Origin: Thalassotalea sp. LPB0316
Lineage (GTDB): Bacteria > Pseudomonadota > Gammaproteobacteria > Enterobacterales > Alteromonadaceae
DNA: 64,000 bases
Direction of reading: 5' to 3'
Assembly (NCBI RefSeq): GCF_014898095.1
Contig: NZ_CP062946.1
Coordinates: forward strand, 992,001 to 1,056,000
In this document: in pieces, positions 5,766 to 16,754 of the stretch
Numbering within the stretch: the first letter of the stretch is position 1
Layout of the letters: every line of letters begins with the position of its first letter
Made by a program: the position numbers and the translations under genes
Notes under the pieces: generated by a model
The model's input: the letters and a program-made list of their open reading frames with translations, nothing else
The model's database searches: none
Told to the model about the DNA's origin: nothing

Positions 5766-7697
5766 ATGGCATTGTGGGGCGGTCGCTTTAAAGAGCAGGC
5801 AAGTGCGCAGTTTAAGAAGTTTAATGATTCATTGCCGGTTGATTATCGACTCGCGGTTCAAGACATTGTTGGCTCGATTGCGTGGGCTGGTGCGTTAAAT
5901 CAAGTCGGTGTCTTGAGCGACCAAGAGGTCGCGACGCTTGAATCAGCATTACTTGAATTAAAGACATCCGTTGAGCAAAACCCGAAACAGATTTTGGTAT
6001 CCGACGCTGAAGATATTCACAGTTGGGTTGAGCTCCAACTTATCGAAAAAACCGGTGATCTCGGCAAAAAACTGCACACAGGGCGTAGCCGTAATGATCA
6101 GGTAGCGACCGACTTAAAGCTTTGGTGTAAAGAAACGGGTGGTGAGTTGTTATTTGCCTTAGTGAATTTACAACAAGCATTAATGAACTTGGCAGAGCGC
6201 GAGAGCAATACCGTATTGCCTGGCTATACTCATTTACAACGCGCTCAACCGGTAACTTTTGGTCATTGGTGTTTAGCTTATGTTGAGATGTTTAACCGCG
6301 ATATCGGCCGGTTAAAAGATGCTTTATATCGCGCCGATACGTCGCCGCTTGGCTCTGGTGCGCTAGCCGGTACCGCTTACCCGATTGATCGCAATTTGTT
6401 GGCGCAAAACTTAGGTTTTAGAACGGCGACAATTAACAGTCTTGACGCGGTTTCTGACAGAGATCATGTGATCGAATTACTCGCAACCGCGAGCGTCAGT
6501 ATGATGCATTTATCGCGCTTTGCCGAAGATTTGATTTTTTACAACTCTGGCGAAGCTGGCTTTGTAGAAATGAGTGATCTAGTCAGCTCAGGCTCCTCGT
6601 TAATGCCGCAAAAGAAAAATCCTGATGCCTGTGAATTAATTCGCGGTAAAGCAGGGCGTGTCTTTGGCTCATTAACCGGCATGTTGACTACGATGAAGGC
6701 TTTAGCACTTGCCTATAACAAAGATATGCAAGAAGACAAAGAAGGCTTATTCGACGCGCTTGATACTTGGCAAGAATGTATGGAAATGGCGGTTTTGGTT
6801 GCACAAGGTTTAAAGGTTAATAGCGCGAGAACGTTAGCGGCAGCACAGCAAGGTTACGCCAACGCGACTGAGCTTGCCGATTATTTAGTGAGTAAAGACG
6901 TGCCGTTTCGCGAAGCCCATCACATTGTTGGTGAAGTGGTATTAACGGCGATTGAACAAGGCGTGCCGCTTGAAGATTTAACGCTCACGCAGCTCCAACA
7001 ATTTAGCGATAAGATTGAGCAAGATGTCTATCAGCACTTAACCATTGAGTCGACGCTCGATAAACGCGAAGCGCTCGGCGGTACTTCACGTGCCCAAGTG
7101 AAAAAAGCGATTGCCGATATTCAAAGTGATCACCAACAAATACTCAACACCCAAGTCGTCGGTGCGCCGGGTAAAAAACAAATTGAGTTTGCTTTAAGAC
7201 AAGTACAACAACGCTTGAACGCTCAGCGGGCGGCGGCGATGTCGGTGCGGCGAGCAAAAATGTCAGACGTCGATAAGATTGAAGAGCTCGTTAGTTATTG
7301 GGCGCAAAAAGGTGAGATATTACCGAGAACTCGTGACAACATTATTCACGATATTCAAAACTTTGTTGTTGCCGAGCTCGACGGTGTAGTGGTCGGTTGT
7401 GCTTCGCTTTATATTTATCAAACCGATCTTGCTGAGATTCGCTCAGTGGTGATTGATAAAGCGTTTCACAAGCAAGGTCAAGGGCAAGCACTCGTGCAAT
7501 ATTTACTCGAATTTGCTCATCAAATGGAGTTAGGCAAAATCATCGTTTTGACCTACATTCCAGAATATTTTAAGCAGTTAGGCTTTGATTTGATCGATAA
7601 AAACTCATTACCAGAAAATATCATTGAAGACAGTGAGCCGAGCCCGTTTAAAAATGAAGATGACGAAGTTGCCATGCAATATTTAGTCGGTGCGTAA
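5766..7697 (+). CDS. argH: ArgH(A): argininosuccinate lyase fused to a GNAT acetyltransferase domain
   Basis: The first 460 or so residues are argininosuccinate lyase, which splits argininosuccinate into arginine and fumarate. [13 protein letters not shown] and the signature [20 protein letters not shown] are intact. From about residue 490 a GNAT domain follows ([17 protein letters not shown], then a core with [11 protein letters not shown] and a C-terminal [12 protein letters not shown]). This matches the ArgH(A) fusion described for Moritella and Vibrio relatives, where the extra domain supplies N-acetylglutamate synthase activity, the first step of the pathway. At 643 residues it is about 180 longer than plain ArgH. 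A separate full-length argA follows at once, so two possible NAGS activities lie next to each other. Confidence 0.95.
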
Positions 7698-7707
7698 GAG
7701 AGCTTTA

Positions 7708-9030
7708 ATGAACACACCCAATATTGATCAGCCTAGTTATGTAAAGTGGTTTCGCCACGCAGCGCCTTATATCAATGCTCATCGCGGTAAAACCGTGGTG
7801 ATGATGTTTGGCGGCGAGGCGGTGTTAGATCAAAATTTTTCAAATATTATTCACGATATTGCGCTGTTGCGAAGTTTGGGCGTGAAGCTAGTTTTGGTTC
7901 ATGGCGCGAGACCGCAAATCGACCAACGGATGCAACTACTTGGCGCAGAACAAACGTTTGAAAATAATTTGCGCATTACCGATAGTGATAGCTTAATGGC
8001 AGTAAAAGATGCTACCGGTGCACTGCGCCTTCACATTGAGGCGCTGCTGACCATGGGGCTAGCCAATTCGCCAATGCACGGCAGTGAAATTCGAGTAAGT
8101 TCAGGTAATTTTGTGATCGCAAAGCCAATTGGTGTTAAGCAAGGTGTTGATTATAAACACACCGGACTAGTTCGCCGTATCGACACCAAGGGGATTGAGA
8201 ATCAGCTGGAGCTAGGCTCGATTGTCTTGCTTTCACCCGTTGGTTATTCACCGACAGGTGAGGTTTTTAATTTGGCGTTGGAAGATGTCGCGACGCAAGC
8301 GGCTATTGCATTACAAGCTGATAAGCTCATTGCTTTTACCAAAGGGCAAGGCTTACTCGATGAAACTGGTCAGTTAATTCGAAGCTGCAGTGTTGGTACG
8401 GTAAAAAGCTTGTTAGATAACAGCAGTGATTACAATCAGCAATTACTGTTGCAGGCGATTATCCAAAGTGGTGAAAACGGCGTTGAACGCTGTCACTGTG
8501 TGAGCTATCAAAGCGATACTGCACTATTACAAGAATTGTTTACTCGTGATGGCGCAGGCACGTTAATCGCCAAAGATCACAAAGAGCAAATTTCAACGGC
8601 GACGATTGATGATGTCGGTGGCATTTTGGAGTTGATCGAGCCGCTTGAAGCCGAAGGCGTGTTAGTAAAGCGCTCCCGCGAATTACTCGAGCTCGAAATC
8701 GATCGCTTTTTAGTATTGAAAAAAGAAGACGTCATTATTGCCTGTGCCGCATTATATCCCTACCCTGAAGTTGGTTGTGGCGAACTAGCCTGTGTTGCCA
8801 TCCATCCCGATTACCGCAAGGGTAATCGAGGCGAACACTTACTCAGTGCGGTAGAGGCCTTTGCTAAGCGACAAAAACTCAATGAGCTCTTTGTGTTAAC
8901 AACTGTTAGTGCTCATTGGTTTTTAGAAAAAGGTTTTGTTGAGAGCTCAGTTGATTACTTACCTGAAGGTAAAAAGCAAATTTACAACTTACAACGCAAA
9001 TCAAAAGTCTTTGTTAAACGCATCGTTTAA
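7708..9030 (+). CDS. argA: N-acetylglutamate synthase ArgA
   Basis: Acetylates glutamate with acetyl-CoA, the committed and feedback-regulated first step of arginine synthesis. The 440-residue protein has an N-terminal amino-acid-kinase-like domain (VMMFGGEAVLD, LVLVHGARPQID), which in this family binds arginine rather than doing catalysis. A C-terminal GNAT domain (CGELACVAIHPDYRKGNRGEHLL) follows. I chose the ATG giving MNTPNIDQPSY because AAGAGAGC lies just upstream; the longer GTG start at 7690 would overlap argH and has no better site. It is the last gene of the operon, close behind ArgH(A), which may duplicate its acetyltransferase activity. Confidence 0.94.
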   Translation: MNTPNIDQPSYVKWFRHAAPYINAHRGKTVVMMFGGEAVLDQNFSNIIHDIALLRSLGVKLVLVHGARPQIDQRMQLLGAEQTFENNLRITDSDSLMAVKDATGALRLHIEALLTMGLANSPMHGSEIRVSSGNFVIAKPIGVKQGVDYKHTGLVRRIDTKGIENQLELGSIVLLSPVGYSPTGEVFNLALEDVATQAAIALQADKLIAFTKGQGLLDETGQLIRSCSVGTVKSLLDNSSDYNQQLLLQAIIQSGENGVERCHCVSYQSDTALLQELFTRDGAGTLIAKDHKEQISTATIDDVGGILELIEPLEAEGVLVKRSRELLELEIDRFLVLKKEDVIIACAALYPYPEVGCGELACVAIHPDYRKGNRGEHLLSAVEAFAKRQKLNELFVLTTVSAHWFLEKGFVESSVDYLPEGKKQIYNLQRKSKVFVKRIV

Positions 9031-9036
9031 TCTATT

Positions 9037-9234
9037 TAACCTGAACTCGGGATAAGAAGTTAGCTAACCTATTAAAAGTAAAAACTTATAATCACTGTCA
9101 ACTGTTCTAGCGAGGGATTTTTTCTTAGTACTAGACAAATTTGTTTGGAATAGCCCGCTATTGCACACAAATTTAACAACGTAATAAGGAAAAATAACCG
9201 CTAGAAAGCAATTTGTTATCCCGAGTTCAGGTTA
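9037..9234. mobile_element. Palindromic MITE-like element
   Basis: A 198-base non-coding element has perfect 19-base terminal inverted repeats, TAACCTGAACTCGGGATAA at 9037-9055 and its complement at 9216-9234. Inside lies a second, imperfect palindrome. Arms from TTCTAGCG (9105) and CGCTAGAA (ending 9206) continue through T-rich/A-rich stretches and AAATTTGT pairs to a centre near 9155 (AATAGC, two bases, GCTATT). Size, terminal repeats and lack of coding capacity are those of a miniature inverted-repeat transposable element. TTTAAT occurs at 9026 and 9235, but 5 bases separate the left copy from the repeat, so a target duplication is uncertain. It sits between the convergent arg and glucosylglycerate operons and could fold to end transcription from either side. 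Confidence 0.65.
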
Positions 9235-9245
9235 TTTAATTGAGC

Positions 9246-11000
9246 TTACTCGCTGACTGAGTTAGTTAGCCATACAGTTTGGTATGGCGCTAACTCGAGA
9301 TGCTCGCTAAAGTCATTAATTGCTTGCTCACTAATTAAGTCATACCAGTTTTCTGTGATGATCAAATTCAACTCACTCACCGGTACTACTTGTTGTTGAT
9401 TGGTGATATTAGAAATACAAAAAATACTTTGTTTTCGATCGAGCGACTGACGCCAAAAGCCAAACAGCGATAAACCGACATTTAAGGTAAATTGTGTCGC
9501 ATTAGGATGAAACGCAGGTTGTGCTTTTCTTAGGTCAATCAGTTTAAGCAACGTCGATAATATTTTCGCGTGCTGGCTATCTTCATTATTGAGGTGTTCA
9601 TCGAGTAAGTCTTGGTACCAACGACGGCGATTAATCGCACGGTTGTGATGGGTGTGATTGAGTTTCTCATAGTCATTGGTTGTGCCCAGTAAACTGTGAA
9701 TATAGATACCCGGTATCCCTTCAAGGGCGAGCATAATAGCATGAGCGCAAATAAAGCGTTCAAAACCCAACTCGTCGGCTCCCTCAACCGTACCTTTTAA
9801 GGCATCAACTAAAGCAATATTCATTTCATAGGCTTTTTGCTGACCATCTGGCGTTGAGCGCCAAGAGATAACACCGCCAAAACTTTGCATCGTTGATATC
9901 AAACTATCGACTTCTTCTTCCGATAAAATACCCTCAACTGGGCGCAAGCCAACGCCATCGTGTGAGGCGATAAAATTAAAATACGTGGTGCCGTTTTGCG
10001 CTGGCGGCATACTCATTAACCAGCGTTTTAAGTGTAAACAATTGCCGGTAATCAAGGTGTTAATTAACAAGGGTGGCAGTGAAAAGTTATAAATACAGTG
10101 AGCTTCGTTAGCGTTACCGAAATAGGTTAAGTTTTGGGTGTTGGGAATATTGGTTTCGGTAATGATCACCGCATTAGGCTCGGCGTGTTCGATTAAACTT
10201 CGCAACAATCGGATAATTTCATGGGTTTGAGCCAAGTTAATGCAGGTCGTGCCCAGTTTTTTCCAGAGAAAGGCAACGGCGTCTAGGCGAAAAATTGTCA
10301 CGCCGGCGTCGAGGTACTGACGGAATATTTTAACAAACTGCGCCAGTACGGCGGGGTTGCTGAAATCAAAATCTACTTGGTCGTGGCTAAAGGTACACCA
10401 AACGTGCTTTTCACCATTGGCTGTCATGGTTGGCCTGAGCAGTGGCGAGGTTCTTGGTCGAACAACCTCACTGGTATCAGCACTGGGATCGCAAGTAAAA
10501 AAGTAATCGTGGCCTGGACCTTCGCCTTTAATGAAGTTTTCAAACCACATACTTCTGCTAGAGCAGTGATTGATGACAACGTCAGCCATTAACCGCCGCT
10601 CGTTTGCGATAGCTCTAATATCGAACCAGCTACCATGTGCTTCATTAACGCTTGAATAATCAATCACTGAAAAGCCGTCATCTGAACTATAGGGGAAAAA
10701 GGGCAAAATATGCACGCCGTTGATAGAAGCGCCAAGATATTGGTTCATAAAGCTACGCAACGTTACTAACGGCAATTCATTTTCACTGATCACGCTATCG
10801 GCATAGGTGATCATAATGATATCTTGCTCAGACCAATGGTTTTGGTAGGGCTCTGGGCTTTGCACCGAAACTGAGATTTGCATTAAATCAATGAGTTCTT
10901 GAGCAAAGGCCAAATAATCTAACTCGATATCGACATCTTGGTAGATGATCGCTAATTGGCCACTAATTTTTAGGGCTAAATTATCTAAAACCGCCGTCAT
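9246..11000 (-). CDS. GH13 sucrose-phosphorylase-like enzyme, probable glucosylglycerate phosphorylase
   Basis: A glycoside hydrolase family 13 enzyme of the sucrose phosphorylase type (584 residues, no signal peptide). The catalytic residues are visible: nucleophile Asp240 in IFRLDAVAF, acid/base Glu282 in IITETN and transition-state Asp348 in ASHDGVG. The subfamily (GH13_18) includes sucrose, glucosylglycerol and 2-O-alpha-glucosylglycerate phosphorylases. Specificity cannot be read with certainty, but it is the last gene of a minus-strand operon holding GpgS, an MPGP-type phosphatase and a glycerate kinase. Phosphorolysis of glucosylglycerate to glucose-1-phosphate and D-glycerate is therefore the best prediction. 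It starts 17 bases after gpgS ends. Sucrose phosphorylase is the main alternative. Confidence 0.85.
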
Positions 11001-11017
11001 ATTCGCTCCTAGTCGCT

Positions 11018-12238
11018 TTAGCTAAATTCTATGTGATCTTGCTCTACCGCATCTTTTAATTCTTCAAGAATGTCAGGTACTGCGCTTTGTACTCTGTTCC
11101 ACGTAGGCATAAATGGCGTTTCCATCGGTCGGTCGAGGAACATTTGGCCGGCGGCAACGATATTTTTAGCAAACATTTCTATGGCTTTTTCTTCGTTGTG
11201 AACGTCGAGGGTTAAGCCATTCATCAAGGCATCGTGACGATAGGCTTCCACGTAATCCAGTGCAATGCGAAAGTAAGTCGCTTTAATTGAACGGAAGGTT
11301 TCGGTGCTGAAGGTTTGCCCTTGGGTTGCCAGTTTTCGGAAAAAGGCTTTGGTAATATCAATCGACATTTTTGATAAGCCGGCATTTTGGTTATCAAGTG
11401 ATAAATCTTGGTGTTTGTGATCGTAAACATCAGCGATATCAACCTGACAAATTCTATTGTGGGCATAGTTGCGTTGCATTTCGCTTAACACACCAATTTC
11501 AAGCCCCCAGTCGCTTGGAATGCGTAAATCCGACAAGACATCGCGGCGGAATGAAAACTCGCCAGCTAGCGGATATCTAAAGCTATCCATATAATCTAAA
11601 TATTCGTTGCAACCGACAGTGCGTTTTAACGCTTTGATCAAAGGCGTAACCAATAAACGCGAAACGCGGCCATTGATTTTGCCGTCAGCGATACGGGCAT
11701 AAAAGCCTTTGCTAAATTCATAGTTAAACTGAGGATGAGCAACAGGATAGAGCAGGCGAGCCAGTAACGATTTTTCATAGGTGACGATATCGCAATCGTG
11801 CAGCGCCACGGATTCTGCTTTATTGGTTGCGAGAATATAGCCCATGCAATACCAAACATTACGGCCTTTACCAAGCTCTTTGGGGGCGAGGCCGAGTTTT
11901 TCTAATTTGGCATCGATTGCTTGCAGCCTAGGACCATCGTTCCACAAAATTCGATGATGTTGCGGTAGTTTATTAAAAAACTTCAAAGCGTGTTGATATT
12001 GCTGTTGGTCTGCTCTATCTAAACCGATCACGATTTGGTTTAAGTAGGGCACCGTTGTTAGTTCATCGACAATAGCCGGCAGCGCTTCCCCCTCAAGTTC
12101 GGAGAATAGCGAAGGCAGAATTAAACCTAGCGGACGTTGCTTGGTGAATTTTAGCAAGTCTTTTTCGAGAGATTCGTGACTGCGCTTTGACAGGTTGTGT
12201 AAGGTTGTCACCACACCATTTTGATAAAAATCAGCCAT
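11018..12238 (-). CDS. gpgS: Glucosyl-3-phosphoglycerate synthase GpgS
   Basis: A cytosolic GT-A fold glycosyltransferase of 406 residues, expected to join glucose from an NDP-glucose donor to 3-phosphoglycerate, giving glucosyl-3-phosphoglycerate. The metal-binding DxD is visible as DCD at residues 148-150 ([10 protein letters not shown]), preceded by a nucleotide-binding region with [12 protein letters not shown] and followed by the acceptor region [15 protein letters not shown]. The length agrees with known GpgS proteins. Its start overlaps the end of the upstream phosphatase gene by eight bases. A mannosyl-3-phosphoglycerate synthase is a related alternative, but the glycerate kinase and phosphorylase partners favour the glucosyl form. 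Confidence 0.88.
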
Positions 12239-13103
12239 ATTTTCTCTCCTTTGTCGTGCTACAGTTGTTGTTTGTTGACCAAATACTGGGTATTAAAAAT
12301 GCTAGCGCTTCTGACCAGCCTGCCGGGCCATAAGCTTGGCTTTGGTAGGTAAACTGGCTTGTTGATAATTTCGGAAAGCCATGAGCTGGTGAGCGAATTT
12401 GAATGGCAATACTTGCTGCCTCTAGCATGGCGTTGTCGTTTTCACCGTCACCCAGTGCTAGCGTAGTTATTGGCGCACTATTTGATTTTTGATAAAGCGC
12501 CGTTAACCATTGCAGTGCTTTGCCCTTGTCGGTGAAATCGCCAATGTGAATAAAGCGTCCACCTCTAAGTACATTGGCACCGCGGTTTTTCATATGATTG
12601 ATAAAGGCTTGAGCTTTTTGTGCCGTGTCATGCCATAACACTGGCTCGTTAAATAGTCGCTGATTCGCTTTTTCAGCTTGCGATAATGATAAGCCGGTTA
12701 AGTTGGCGATGGTTTTCGTTGATAATTCTGAAAATCCTTGAAATTGGTCTTGATATTCCTGTGCTTCATTTTTAAGTAGTGTTAGCCAATAGGCCCTTGG
12801 TTGGCTAAAGCTTTTAAGCCAGTAATTTTGGAAGTCAACACAGCCGGTAGGGCAGGCCTTAAACTGCGACTTTGGTAGGAAAATCGCAGCGCCGTTTTCA
12901 ACAATAAAGGGCGCCTCTATATCGAGCGAGCCCTGAATATCGACAACTTCAGCAAACGTTTTACTGGTGTTAATAATAATCGGAATATTAGCTGCTTGTA
13001 ACTTCACCATCATAGGCATTGCCGCTTCATGGCTATAGCTAAAGTGATCGAGCAAGGTGCCGTCTAAATCGGTAAAAACTAAACAAGGGGGATTAAATGG
13101 CAT
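12231..13103 (-). CDS. HAD phosphatase of the mannosyl/glucosyl-3-phosphoglycerate phosphatase family
   Basis: A HAD-superfamily phosphatase of 290 residues. Motif I is FTDLDGTLLD with nucleophile Asp12 and Asp14; motif IV is LGDGENDNAML around residue 219. The large insert between them is a C2-type cap as in MPGP/YedP proteins. Beside gpgS it most likely removes the phosphate from glucosyl-3-phosphoglycerate to release glucosylglycerate, a compatible solute. It overlaps glycerate kinase upstream and gpgS downstream, so it is tightly coupled in the operon. The annotation mannosyl-3-phosphoglycerate phosphatase would come from homology; context favours the glucosyl substrate. Confidence 0.85.
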   Translation of the reverse strand: MPFNPPCLVFTDLDGTLLDHFSYSHEAAMPMMVKLQAANIPIIINTSKTFAEVVDIQGSLDIEAPFIVENGAAIFLPKSQFKACPTGCVDFQNYWLKSFSQPRAYWLTLLKNEAQEYQDQFQGFSELSTKTIANLTGLSLSQAEKANQRLFNEPVLWHDTAQKAQAFINHMKNRGANVLRGGRFIHIGDFTDKGKALQWLTALYQKSNSAPITTLALGDGENDNAMLEAASIAIQIRSPAHGFPKLSTSQFTYQSQAYGPAGWSEALAFLIPSIWSTNNNCSTTKERKYG

Positions 13104-13962
13104 GCATACTCCTTAGTGCGTTGATTGCGCGGTCACTTGCTAATTCAAAAACGTAATCACACTCAACAGGTAATCTTGCGATAGCGTGGCTGGTTAAGCG
13201 TTCAAAATGCTGAATAAAGCGAGCAATTTGCTGCTCGTTCATCACTTTGCTGTTGTTTGGCTTTGCGACTTTTTGACGCAATTTTTGCTCTTGTTGCCAG
13301 CGCCACTGCGCGACGCAGTCGAAATTGGGGGCCTTAAGCATTAACCAGCAGTGCATTTGCTTGTAAAAAGGCAGGAAATTGGTTAATTGTTGATTAACGT
13401 AATTGCGCCACTTGCCATCAATATCTTCATTTTCCTCAAGCGCATTGATTGGCGAGGCTAATTGAAGCTGGCTTTGTGGTTTGACTCCCCAACACCAACC
13501 TTCAAATATAACTATTTCTGGCTGTGTTATTTCTGGCCATTGGCTTTGTGGTAGCGGATCGTCTGTAGCTTTATCAAAACGCGGTAATTTCGTGGTTTGT
13601 CTGTTTGATAAAGTATCAAAGACCTTTTTCATTAAGGTTACATTGTGTGTGCCCGGTACGCCGCGTGTTGCAAGTAAGGGGTGGATAGTGTCAGCGAGTT
13701 CGGCTCGCTTAGCTGATGGCAGATAGAAGTCATCTAAAGACAGTACCGCAACGCTTAAGTTTAATCGCTGCTTAAAATAAGTTGATAGAAAATCCGCTAA
13801 GGTTGACTTACCTGAGCCTTGACAGCCGTTAATACCAATAAAAAATGGTGACTGCTCAGGCCGTTGTGAACTGAGCTGCTTGGCAACAGGGATAAACCAT
13901 TGCTCAGCTGTTCGTGCAAAGCCTTCTGGTAATTGGTGTTGTTGAATGAACTGTTCAAGCAT
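13093..13962 (-). CDS. P-loop D-glycerate kinase (GLYK-like)
   Basis: A P-loop kinase of 289 residues with Walker A GCQGSGKST (Gly46 to Ser53). It also has LSLDDFYLPSAKR, the region HPLLATRGVPGTHN and LPRFDKATDDP, features of plant-type D-glycerate 3-kinases. VIFEGWCWGV is the Walker B-like strand. Expected product: 3-phosphoglycerate from D-glycerate and ATP. It is the first gene of the operon; AAGAGAGG precedes its ATG. Next to a putative glucosylglycerate phosphorylase its job would be to recover the glycerate. A related uridine- or pantothenate-kinase-like activity is less likely. Confidence 0.85.
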   Translation of the reverse strand: MLEQFIQQHQLPEGFARTAEQWFIPVAKQLSSQRPEQSPFFIGINGCQGSGKSTLADFLSTYFKQRLNLSVAVLSLDDFYLPSAKRAELADTIHPLLATRGVPGTHNVTLMKKVFDTLSNRQTTKLPRFDKATDDPLPQSQWPEITQPEIVIFEGWCWGVKPQSQLQLASPINALEENEDIDGKWRNYVNQQLTNFLPFYKQMHCWLMLKAPNFDCVAQWRWQQEQKLRQKVAKPNNSKVMNEQQIARFIQHFERLTSHAIARLPVECDYVFELASDRAINALRSMHAI

Positions 13963-14116
13963 TTCAGTCGCCTCTCTTGACCTACCAATAGTTAAGTCAT
14001 TGGTGTAAGTATGAGAAGAATCAACTAATATGCCACTAATTAAATAGTGTTATAAATCAGTTTGTTAGCCATTATTTGTTGTTTTGGTTAGCTTAATTTG
14101 ACTGATTTTTGTACCT

Positions 14117-14141
14117 GGCTTGCACCGAGTTGGTGCAAGCC
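14117..14141. terminator. Perfect 10-bp hairpin downstream of mrcA
   Basis: GGCTTGCACC and GGTGCAAGCC form a perfect stem with a 5-base loop, a few bases after the mrcA stop on the minus strand and before the glycerate kinase promoter region. There is no clear U-tract on either strand, so it may be a weak or Rho-assisted terminator, or it may protect the mRNA 3' end. Confidence 0.5.
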
Positions 14142-14147
14142 TTGGGC

Positions 14148-16754
14148 TTAGAAAATATCGTCAGCTGGCGTGGTTTCAAATATTTCACTACTGGTATCTT
14201 TGCGGACAAACTCTGTTGGCTCACTGCCGAGTTTAAAATATTCAAACATTGTTGTTTTATCCGTTTTCTTGGTTAGCTTACCCGTTGCTTTATCGATTCT
14301 AACCGTGACGATATCGACCGGCTGACTAAATGGTTCATAGGGGTAATTGTTCAACGCTTGTTCCATAAAAGTAATCCAAGCTGGTTGTGCTGATTTTGCG
14401 CCAAACTCTTTGCCCGTGATCTGATCTTTACCTAAATTGCGATTGTAGACGGTTTGACCTAAATCGCGCGCTGGATCGTCAAAACCTATCCAACTGGTTG
14501 CCACGATTCTACGGCTGAAGCCAGAAAACCAAGCATCTTTGGCTGAGTTCGTCGTCCCTGTTTTACCAGCAATATCGCGACGTTTTAACGAACGAGCTCT
14601 AAAACCAGTACCTTGCCAACCCGGTTTTATTGACCAATCAGCGCCCCAAATGGCACTGTTGAGCGCTTCTGTCATCAAATAAGCGTTTTGTGCACTAATC
14701 ACTCGCTCTGCTTGAACAATTGGTTGAGTTGGTTGTACCTCGGTTGAATTTGATATGTCACTTAGCTGTGTCACCATCGCGGCTGGCGTTTTAATTTGCT
14801 CAACAGATGCGACTGATGTCGATAGTTCAGATTGCTCACTTAGTTGCGCTTGGCTTTCTTCTACCAAACATGGATCACAGGCTTGTGCAGGATTAGCTTG
14901 GAAAATTACGTCGCCAAATGAGTCTTCTATGCGTTCAATCAAATACGGTTTAACTAAAAAACCGCCATTGGCGAAGGTTGCAAACCCCGTTGCGACTTCT
15001 AATGGTGTTAATGAAGCTGAGCCTAGGGCTAGCGATTCATTTCGCGGTAAATCGTCTGGTGAAAAACCAAAGAGTGATAAATAGTCGATAGTGTTACTGA
15101 TACCGACTTCGCGCAATAAGCGGACTGCGATAACGTTTTTCGACTCAGCAAGCGCCTGACGAATGCGAATAGGGCCAGCGTATACTGGCGGTGAGTTTTT
15201 CGGGCGCCACGCAACACCTGATGTTCTATCCCATTTATTGATCGGCGCATCGTTAACCAATGACGCCAAGGTCATGCCTTTTTCAAGCGCAGCTGAATAG
15301 ATAAAAGGTTTAATATTTGAACCGACTTGGCGCTTGGCCTGGGTAACGCGGTTAAACTCACTTTGTTTAAAACTAAAACCACCAACGGTTGCTAAAATGG
15401 CACCGTTATCAGGGTTTAACGCGACTAAAGCACTTGAAACTTGTGGTAGCTGACTCAGTGCAAATTGCTGCTCGTTGATTGATTTGACAAAAACCACGTC
15501 ACCGCGCTTGATGATATCGTCAGGCGTTTGAGGCGGAGGTCCTTGCTTGTAGTCACTAATAAATTCACGTGCCCAACTCATGCCTTGCCACGGAATTTCA
15601 CCGGTTGATAAATCCTCAAAAGTCACCATCGCCATGTGTTCATCGACATAGGTCACTACCGCCGGTATAAGTGATTGGAAGCCAGTCATCTCACTTAAGG
15701 TTTCAACTATTTCTTCTTCGGTAACTGGCGTATCAGGGGTTATTTCAAGCGTTTGACCGACTTCAAGTGAATCAGGTAACGGGCGTAACTCTTTTATTGG
15801 TCCGCGGTAGCCGTGACGTAAATCGTAATCAAACAGGTTTTTAACAACAGCGTGTTGAGCGGCGAGTTGGAGATCAGATGGTACGGTTAAGTACACTTTG
15901 TAACCGCCGGTGTAAGCTTCTTCGCGACCGTAACGCGTTAACATTTCTTGGTGGGCCATTTCCGCAACATAAGGCGCATTCACTTCAATTTCAGCACCGT
16001 GGCGTTTACCGGTAATTGGCGCATTTTTGGCTTCTTCGTATTGTGCTTGGCTAATTTTTTCAGTGACTAACATGCGCTCTAGAACAACAGCTCGGCGATC
16101 TCTGGCGCGCTCCGGCGAGCGAATTGGATTCATGGTCGATGGCGCTTTTGGCAGGCCAGCAAGTACTGCAATTTGGGCAAGCGTTAACTCTTTAACGTCC
16201 TTACCGTAATATACTTGCGCGGCGGCACCAAAACCAAATGAGCGATGCCCGAGGGCAATTTTGTTCATGTACAATTCTAGAATTTCATCTTTTGTCAGTA
16301 TGCTTTCTATGTGCAGAGAAATAAAAATTTCACGAATTTTACGGGTGTAAGTTTGTTCTCGTGATAAGAAAAAGTTACGTGCAACTTGCATGGTAATGGT
16401 TGAACCACCACCTTTGTTCTGGCCGATAATTTGACCGACAACAGCACGGGCCAAACCAATTGGGTCGATACCAAAGTGATAATAGAAGCGCTCGTCTTCG
16501 GTGGCGAGAATAGCGTCGATGAGTTGTTGCGGCATTTCATCTAAAGAAAGAGGTATGCGTTTTTTCTCACCGAATTGTGAGATCAGCTTGCCATCGGCAG
16601 TAAAAATTTGCATCGGCGTTTGCCAATTCACTTCTTTAAGTGACTCAACACTTGGCAATTCATCGCGCATACTGATATAAATTATTATCAATGCGATAAC
16701 GCCAGCGAAAAATCCTATTAACGCTAATTTAAATAAGTTTTTTAACGAAAACAC
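14148..16754 (-). CDS. mrcA: Penicillin-binding protein 1A, bifunctional peptidoglycan synthase
   Basis: A class A penicillin-binding protein (868 residues) anchored in the inner membrane by an N-terminal helix (residues about 8-28). The glycosyltransferase 51 domain shows TEDERFYYHFGID with catalytic Glu86, GGSTITMQVARNFFLS and KDEILELYMNKI. The transpeptidase domain shows GSNIKPF with active-site Ser479, SKN in ALAESKNVI and KTGTTN (Lys731). An OB-like insert lies between the two. A stretch near residues 625-690 (ACDPC, then Ser/Gln/Thr-rich sequence) looks like a flexible insert. It is divergent from pilM, the standard arrangement in gammaproteobacteria. Confidence 0.97.
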   Translation of the reverse strand: MFSLKNLFKLALIGFFAGVIALIIIYISMRDELPSVESLKEVNWQTPMQIFTADGKLISQFGEKKRIPLSLDEMPQQLIDAILATEDERFYYHFGIDPIGLARAVVGQIIGQNKGGGSTITMQVARNFFLSREQTYTRKIREIFISLHIESILTKDEILELYMNKIALGHRSFGFGAAAQVYYGKDVKELTLAQIAVLAGLPKAPSTMNPIRSPERARDRRAVVLERMLVTEKISQAQYEEAKNAPITGKRHGAEIEVNAPYVAEMAHQEMLTRYGREEAYTGGYKVYLTVPSDLQLAAQHAVVKNLFDYDLRHGYRGPIKELRPLPDSLEVGQTLEITPDTPVTEEEIVETLSEMTGFQSLIPAVVTYVDEHMAMVTFEDLSTGEIPWQGMSWAREFISDYKQGPPPQTPDDIIKRGDVVFVKSINEQQFALSQLPQVSSALVALNPDNGAILATVGGFSFKQSEFNRVTQAKRQVGSNIKPFIYSAALEKGMTLASLVNDAPINKWDRTSGVAWRPKNSPPVYAGPIRIRQALAESKNVIAVRLLREVGISNTIDYLSLFGFSPDDLPRNESLALGSASLTPLEVATGFATFANGGFLVKPYLIERIEDSFGDVIFQANPAQACDPCLVEESQAQLSEQSELSTSVASVEQIKTPAAMVTQLSDISNSTEVQPTQPIVQAERVISAQNAYLMTEALNSAIWGADWSIKPGWQGTGFRARSLKRRDIAGKTGTTNSAKDAWFSGFSRRIVATSWIGFDDPARDLGQTVYNRNLGKDQITGKEFGAKSAQPAWITFMEQALNNYPYEPFSQPVDIVTVRIDKATGKLTKKTDKTTMFEYFKLGSEPTEFVRKDTSSEIFETTPADDIF

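Follow-up and report, generated by a model that had tools for sequence, protein, structure and literature searches.

What gene arrangement could let a bacterium both make and recover glucosylglycerate (GG) from one compact block, and what would switch such a block on? This question is raised by a stretch of 64,000 nucleotides of the Thalassotalea sp. LPB0316 genome (positions 992001-1056000 of its single 3.55-Mb contig; hereafter the window), in which a putative glycerate kinase (GLYK), phosphatase (GpgP), synthase (GpgS) and GH13 phosphorylase (GGaP) are encoded side by side. We consider it quite probable that these four genes constitute a complete intracellular GG cycle, carried on one predicted transcript and switched on by nitrogen limitation via NtrC and sigma-54. 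From the DNA we infer the substrate specificities, the single transcript, the binding of NtrC and RpoN and the osmolyte role. A sequence-only reading of the window had described four packed or overlapping minus-strand genes at 9246-13962, and the coordinates of the open reading frames (ORFs) agree with it: GLYK shares 11 nt with GpgP, the GpgP and GpgS frames have 8 nt in common, and a gap of 17 nt separates GpgS from GGaP (Table 1). The identities that it gave to the four products (kinase, MPGP-type phosphatase, GpgS, GH13 phosphorylase) stand at the sequence level. Where that reading thought of an osmolyte that could be built up and dismantled quickly, the trigger has to be revised: the upstream DNA points to nitrogen control through NtrC and sigma-54.

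The GH13 protein matched PF00128 in a Pfam profile search, and its catalytic triad D240/E282/D348, previously claimed to be intact, was found to be invariant in an alignment of 12 sequences. Sucrose and glucosylglycerol phosphorylases are among its best sequence matches in the PDB, and homologues are named 'sucrose phosphorylase' in some databases, as would be expected if an enzyme of either kind merely adjoined the GG genes. GGaPs are distinguished from sucrose phosphorylases (SPs) by a (T/S)ETN motif and by a glutamate in loop A, where most other clades have glutamine (PMC7178133). The window protein carries TETN at residues 281-284 and, within AYEMN, Glu392, which corresponds to the published loop A glutamate by alignment. 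Every one of the 26 GGaP-type sequences taken from relatives for comparison has both signatures, as does E. coli YcjM; three SP-like paralogs (L028-L030) have neither, with glutamine at the loop A position. The protein scored 191.8 bits against the sucrose phosphorylase model TIGR03852, far under its curated cut-off of 334.4, and it is 40% identical to YcjM (over window-protein residues 53-578) as against about 29-30% to the three paralogs. The E. coli enzyme is counted among the strict GGaPs (PMC7178133) and YcjM is listed as a GGaP (PMC8950772). A sucrose phosphorylase identity was rejected on the TIGR03852 score together with the TETN motif and loop A glutamate, and we judge it extremely unlikely that a phosphorylase of sucrose or of glucosylglycerol happens to lie here next to GG genes. 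By both published signatures the protein is of the GGaP type, with GG as its predicted substrate. The closest organism-named GGaP among the matches listed is that of Thalassotalea eurytherma (85%), and a protein search of the genome itself gave one match at E ≤0.001. In a tree built with FastTree from 31 GH13 sequences, which takes no part in the argument, the three SP-like paralogs stand apart on a long branch joining beside YcjM.

The phosphatase passed the cut-offs of two models (NF001218, 373.9 versus 362 bits; TIGR01486, 212.4 versus 164.75) and matched the PDB entries 1xvi and 3ztw. GLYK narrowly passed PF00485 (23.6 versus 22) and reached the cut-off of none of the NCBIfam models. Among PDB sequences it matches two D-glycerate 3-kinases best (7xpc, 1.8e-20; 6ckg, 1.9e-19), 1odf was also matched, and a Walker A motif, GCQGSGKS, can be read in its sequence. 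The kinase is thus related to D-glycerate 3-kinases, and its product would be 3-phosphoglycerate. The synthase matched NF040724 over residues 3-404 of 406 at 374.8 bits, under the cut-off of 700, a shortfall to be held against the assignment. It scored 70.9 bits with NF010496 (cut-off 262), gave no match in the Pfam profile search and weakly matched PDB chains of GpgS (7pdo, E 2.1e-5). We name it as a putative GpgS from the full-length NF040724 match, the PDB match and the gene context, and not as a member of NF040724.

Table 1. Predicted genes and regulatory sites of the GG locus (positions in the window)
Feature	Position	Strand	Remark
NtrC-box-like palindrome TGCACCAACTCGGTGCA	14121-14137	none	predicted; precedes the -24/-12 element by 102 nt
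Sigma-54 -24/-12 type element TGGCATATTAGTTGAT	14020-14035	minus	predicted; has A in place of the C in the -12 GC
GLYK, D-glycerate 3-kinase type P-loop kinase	13093-13962	minus	operon gene 1; ORF of 289 aa
GpgP, MPGP-type HAD phosphatase	12231-13103	minus	ORF of 290 aa
GpgS, glucosyl-3-phosphoglycerate synthase	11018-12238	minus	ORF of 406 aa
GGaP, GH13_18 glucosylglycerate phosphorylase	9246-11000	minus	ORF of 584 aa

The phosphorylase and the synthase tend to occur together. We searched 59 genomes, namely that of the strain and those of 58 relatives, and found a strong GGaP type (>500 bits) in 27 and GpgS in 28 of them: 27 genomes have both, 31 neither, one GpgS only and none GGaP only (Fisher P 6e-16, a value that ignores phylogeny). 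GLYK exceeded 100 bits in 25 of the 27 GGaP genomes versus 7 of the 32 others (P 4e-8). A survey of the four-gene neighbourhood, which the sequence-only reading had proposed, recovered the same order, GLYK-GpgP-GpgS-GGaP, in 22 of the 26 loci of relatives; one of the other loci has no GLYK, two have GGaP inverted and one has GGaP alone. Among 80 named loci, which are the best 80 of at least 590 and two of which repeat loci of relatives, 50 have the four-gene order, 27 GpgP-GpgS-GGaP only (including L125, whose flank is too short to judge GLYK), two are cut at a contig end and one has GLYK last. With the order recurring in both sets, the arrangement is beyond chance. GLYK was sought with the window sequence at ≥40 bits, so that a divergent kinase could be missed; no substitute glycerate kinase was recognised by eye next to the loci lacking GLYK, in the first 40 residues of the flanking ORFs, read without a profile scan. 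Two loci, L055 and L057, present the same gene set in another layout, with a GGaP (45-46% identity) oriented opposite to gpgS-gpgP. In L052 (genome G004), GpgS is split over two reading frames near residue 59, by a frameshift or a sequencing error.

The operon proteins have diverged unequally within the genus, as seen over 11018-13962 against loci L032 and L033. Compared with the same-genus genomes G001 and G002, GpgS is 96-98% identical, GGaP 85-90%, GpgP 64% and GLYK 55-60%, and differences at four-fold sites are about equal across the four genes (0.63-0.72). Given this near-equal divergence, we rejected the idea that gpgS was recently exchanged among members of the genus and favour unequal constraint. 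GLYK or GpgP may have been replaced at an older date.

What could switch the operon on? The palindrome upstream of it agrees at 13 of 14 fixed positions with the published 17-bp NtrC box TGCACCAnnnTGGTGCA and is the only perfect TGCACCN5GGTGCA in the genome. The element that follows reads TGGCAT-N5-TTGAT: the -24 GG and the spacing fit a sigma-54 promoter, and the -12 GC has A for C. The pair is the only one in the 64 kb when at most two mismatches are allowed in the box and one in the element, at a distance of 40-160 nt. The genome encodes both proteins that such sites would call for, NtrC (755.8 versus a cut-off of 558.6) and RpoN (519.9 versus 277.35). It also offers positive controls, which the layout upstream of the operon resembles in combining a box with an element: upstream of glnA lie two NtrC boxes with two mismatches and TGGCACACTTTTGGCT, and upstream of glnK-amtB lies AGCACCAACATGGTGCG followed 79 nt on by TGGCACAGGGTTTGTA. 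In these controls, the names glnA and glnK were assigned by inspection of the translations, and amtB scored 332.1 against TIGR00836, just under the cut-off of 343.3. The -12 region of glnK-amtB, TTGTA, lacks the C just as the operon element does, and the -12 GC is poorly conserved in NtrC-dependent promoters of E. coli (PMC8743547). At one mismatch, the NtrC core occurs at four sites in the genome: one 10 nt before the ORF adjoining ntrC (ntrB by position), two within ORFs that, to the eye, resemble murE and tatD, and one unplaced. A scan for sigma-70 promoters found 4 versus 10.6 expected and was uninformative.

The motifs were first noticed in the window, and therefore the other upstream regions provide the test. 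For 103 loci, comprising the window, the 26 from relatives and 76 named ones (four of the 80, L075, L077, L093 and L097, had flanks too short to use), we extracted the 300 nt that precede the operon's first gene, with start codons extrapolated from tblastn. These regions were searched for TGGCAY-N5-TTGCW, allowing up to one mismatch, and for TGCACC-N5-GGTGCA, the core of the NtrC box, allowing up to two. The first gene is GLYK in 71 loci, GpgP in 29 and GGaP in 3. The sigma-54 element was found in 64 of the 103 regions (63 of 102 without the window), versus 1.35 per 103 for real segments drawn at random from the same loci and 0.8 for shuffles in two-base blocks. The NtrC box was found in 32 (31 of 102 without the window), versus 2.1 and 1.05, respectively. 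Removal of duplicates left 63 of 101 regions with the element, 32 of 101 with the box and 23 with both; the loci share ancestry, so that these counts are not independent. Within the window and its 26 relatives, the element occurs in 21 and the box in 11 of the 27 loci. Over the 1.42 Mb of the relatives' loci, the ordered pair (40-160 nt) precedes the operon in 15 loci, and 6 pairs were found at other places. When the window was aligned with three other loci (L032, L033 and L036), the sigma-54 element was the longest conserved island in a diverged spacer. The -12 C is present in 7 of the 50 GLYK-first loci having the element. In one locus (L101:2045-4554), an NtrC-box/sigma-54 pair precedes an ORF of 726 aa upstream of the GG genes, which we take, from its first residues, to be reminiscent of a type III glutamine synthetase.

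The palindrome can also be looked at in another way. It starts 10 nt past the stop codon of ponA and its arms can be extended by 4 pairs (3 in L033), making a hairpin possible, and the motif of L036 resembles part of a true terminator. The GG cycle operon might then be real with the palindrome serving as the ponA terminator or as an RNA hairpin, TGGCAY-N5-TTG being the site of another DNA-binding protein and control being osmotic or constitutive. In line with this, T-rich stretches follow some of the 32 boxes, with 7 T in 10 nt in L035 and L036 and 6 in L066, L068, L106 and L119; the 10 nt that follow the palindrome of the window contain only one T, however, and the site was not listed by a terminator scan. 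No Rfam element reached the gathering threshold in 8900-14400. The arms extend by at least two pairs in 9 of the 32 boxes, by one pair in 5 and not at all in 18, among which L057 has no flank to judge. Two Shewanella loci (L066 and L069) have the box in front of GpgP as first gene, and both spacing and motif in the window are like those of glnA and glnK-amtB in the same genome. The Alteromonas named loci with upstream sequence are on the side of this alternative, as all nine have the TGGCAY element and none of them an NtrC box at two mismatches. Taking these points together, we consider such a terminator or hairpin origin unlikely.

Besides the possible hairpin, the L036 motif and the Alteromonas loci, further observations weigh against control of the operon by NtrC and sigma-54. 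The window element alone is at chance level (0.85 expected by shuffles), and the exact sigma-54 consensus gave 8 genome matches versus 4 in a reversed control, the operon site being absent among them. As the element by itself is unremarkable, the regulatory case rests on recurrence and pairing. At the mismatch limits used, the NtrC box is lacking in 71 of the 103 loci and the sigma-54 element in 39, while GLYK is not the first gene in 32. If the element is a promoter in Alteromonas, another activator or weaker sites would be needed there. No sigma-54 element lies between the ntrB box and its gene. In a computed network of Synechococcus WH8102, GG synthesis is grouped with osmoregulation by sigma-38 (PMC2874817). 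Having both halves of the cycle under one promoter, finally, predicts futile cycling unless the flux is otherwise controlled. Control by NtrC and sigma-54 is nonetheless the reading we prefer, and nitrogen limitation likely induces the whole cycle. GG production is reported to be favoured by low nitrogen, and GG to replace glutamate as a counter-ion under nitrogen limitation (PMC11009771), a substitution which fits control by NtrC.

The predicted cycle would operate as follows. GpgS would join NDP-glucose to 3-phosphoglycerate and GpgP would strip the phosphate to leave GG, a nitrogen-free anionic osmolyte. GGaP would reversibly split GG with phosphate into glucose 1-phosphate (Glc1P) and D-glycerate, and GLYK would use ATP to return glycerate to 3-phosphoglycerate (3PG), so that the acceptor of GpgS would be remade in one step. 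Judging from the enzyme families, each GG would cost one NDP-glucose through GpgS and GpgP and one ATP at GLYK, the glucosyl bond being kept as Glc1P by GGaP. With both arms under one promoter, the choice between build-up and breakdown would have to be set by metabolite levels or by regulation of the proteins, and not by separate transcription.

The closed cycle was put forward by the sequence-only reading as its own inference. As a pathway it holds at the sequence level, through the GGaP signatures and the kinship of the kinase; as a novelty it does not, since it is already published, in a 2020 review and a 2024 study. According to the review, it was through such gene neighbours (glycerate kinase, GpgS or GpgP) that GGaP came to be recognised (PMC7178133), and in Prochlorococcus a GG metabolism operon and the recycling of GG to Glc1P and 3PG have been described (PMC11631117). 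The four-gene set is known from other bacteria, and what the present analysis adds are the regulatory sites; our literature searches, most of which listed only part of their matches, returned among the listed titles no report of NtrC/sigma-54 control of GG genes. The closest known counterparts of the window enzyme are the GH13_18 proteins Mesil_0665 of Meiothermus silvanus, Spith_0877 of Spirochaeta thermophila and YcjM of E. coli, all three 2-O-glucosylglycerate phosphorylases (PMC8950772), which share TETN and the loop A glutamate with it; YcjM is the one whose sequence was compared. Glycerate kinase, GpgS or GpgP likewise adjoin GH13_18 GGaPs, whereas the window, known from its sequence alone, has the full set as one compact block, together with NtrC-like and sigma-54-like sites that the available text of the review does not mention (PMC7178133). 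The Prochlorococcus operon, as far as its description goes, is like that of the window in uniting compatible-solute genes with recycling to Glc1P and 3PG, but it includes or adjoins a putative transporter gene (PMC11631117), and no transporter ORF was found among the window ORFs of the operon. Mycobacteria also break GG down, on recovery from nitrogen starvation, through a hydrolase that yields glucose and glycerate (PMC11009771), whereas the route in the window would be phosphorolytic.

A GGaP homologue in another setting is that of the E. coli ycjM-ycjT locus (L031). In the 12 kb seen, it has no gpgS, gpgP or glycerate kinase beside it, and putative ABC transporter genes and a kojibiose phosphorylase are found instead. 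Such a setting suggests that a GGaP could serve mainly to degrade GG imported from outside, for example from cyanobacteria, and not to turn over the cell's own GG. For the window enzyme we regard this as very unlikely: besides the lack of a transporter ORF, the operon is bordered by ponA/pilM and an argA-like gene (names read from translations), and GGaP is accompanied by GpgS in 27 of 27 genomes.

A MITE-like element of 196 bp (9038-9233) separates GGaP from the argA-like gene that converges on it, with inverted ends of 25 nt that are 92% complementary and, read by eye, 4-bp direct flanks ATTT. Among 21 matches to its ends in the genome, end pairs at equal spacing are seen at two further places (1544752 and 273843), the first being nearly identical and in reverse orientation. 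Beyond it, judging from the translation, 5766-7697 presumably encodes an argH-type protein extended at its C terminus by an acetyltransferase-like part, and the argA-like ORF follows at 7690.

For marine Gammaproteobacteria more broadly, we tentatively suggest, with rather less confidence than for the window itself, that the whole GG operon is a member of the sigma-54 regulon and that NtrC activates it in at least part of the group (the Thalassotalea, Colwellia and Shewanella loci). Nitrogen shortage would then exchange nitrogen-bearing osmolytes for GG, and GGaP and GLYK would act as a reversible valve whose setting depends on phosphate, Glc1P and glycerate, so that one transcript could build GG in famine and cash it in once the shortage ends, with no need for renewed transcription. 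What GGaP does in vivo is left open by the 2020 review (PMC7178133). If our reading is true, a nitrogen-control promoter serves the genes for both the synthesis and the recovery of GG, which would bear on that role. It would also provide a regulatory mechanism for the accumulation of GG by nitrogen-limited marine heterotrophs, linking a nitrogen-free protectant to nitrogen shortage.

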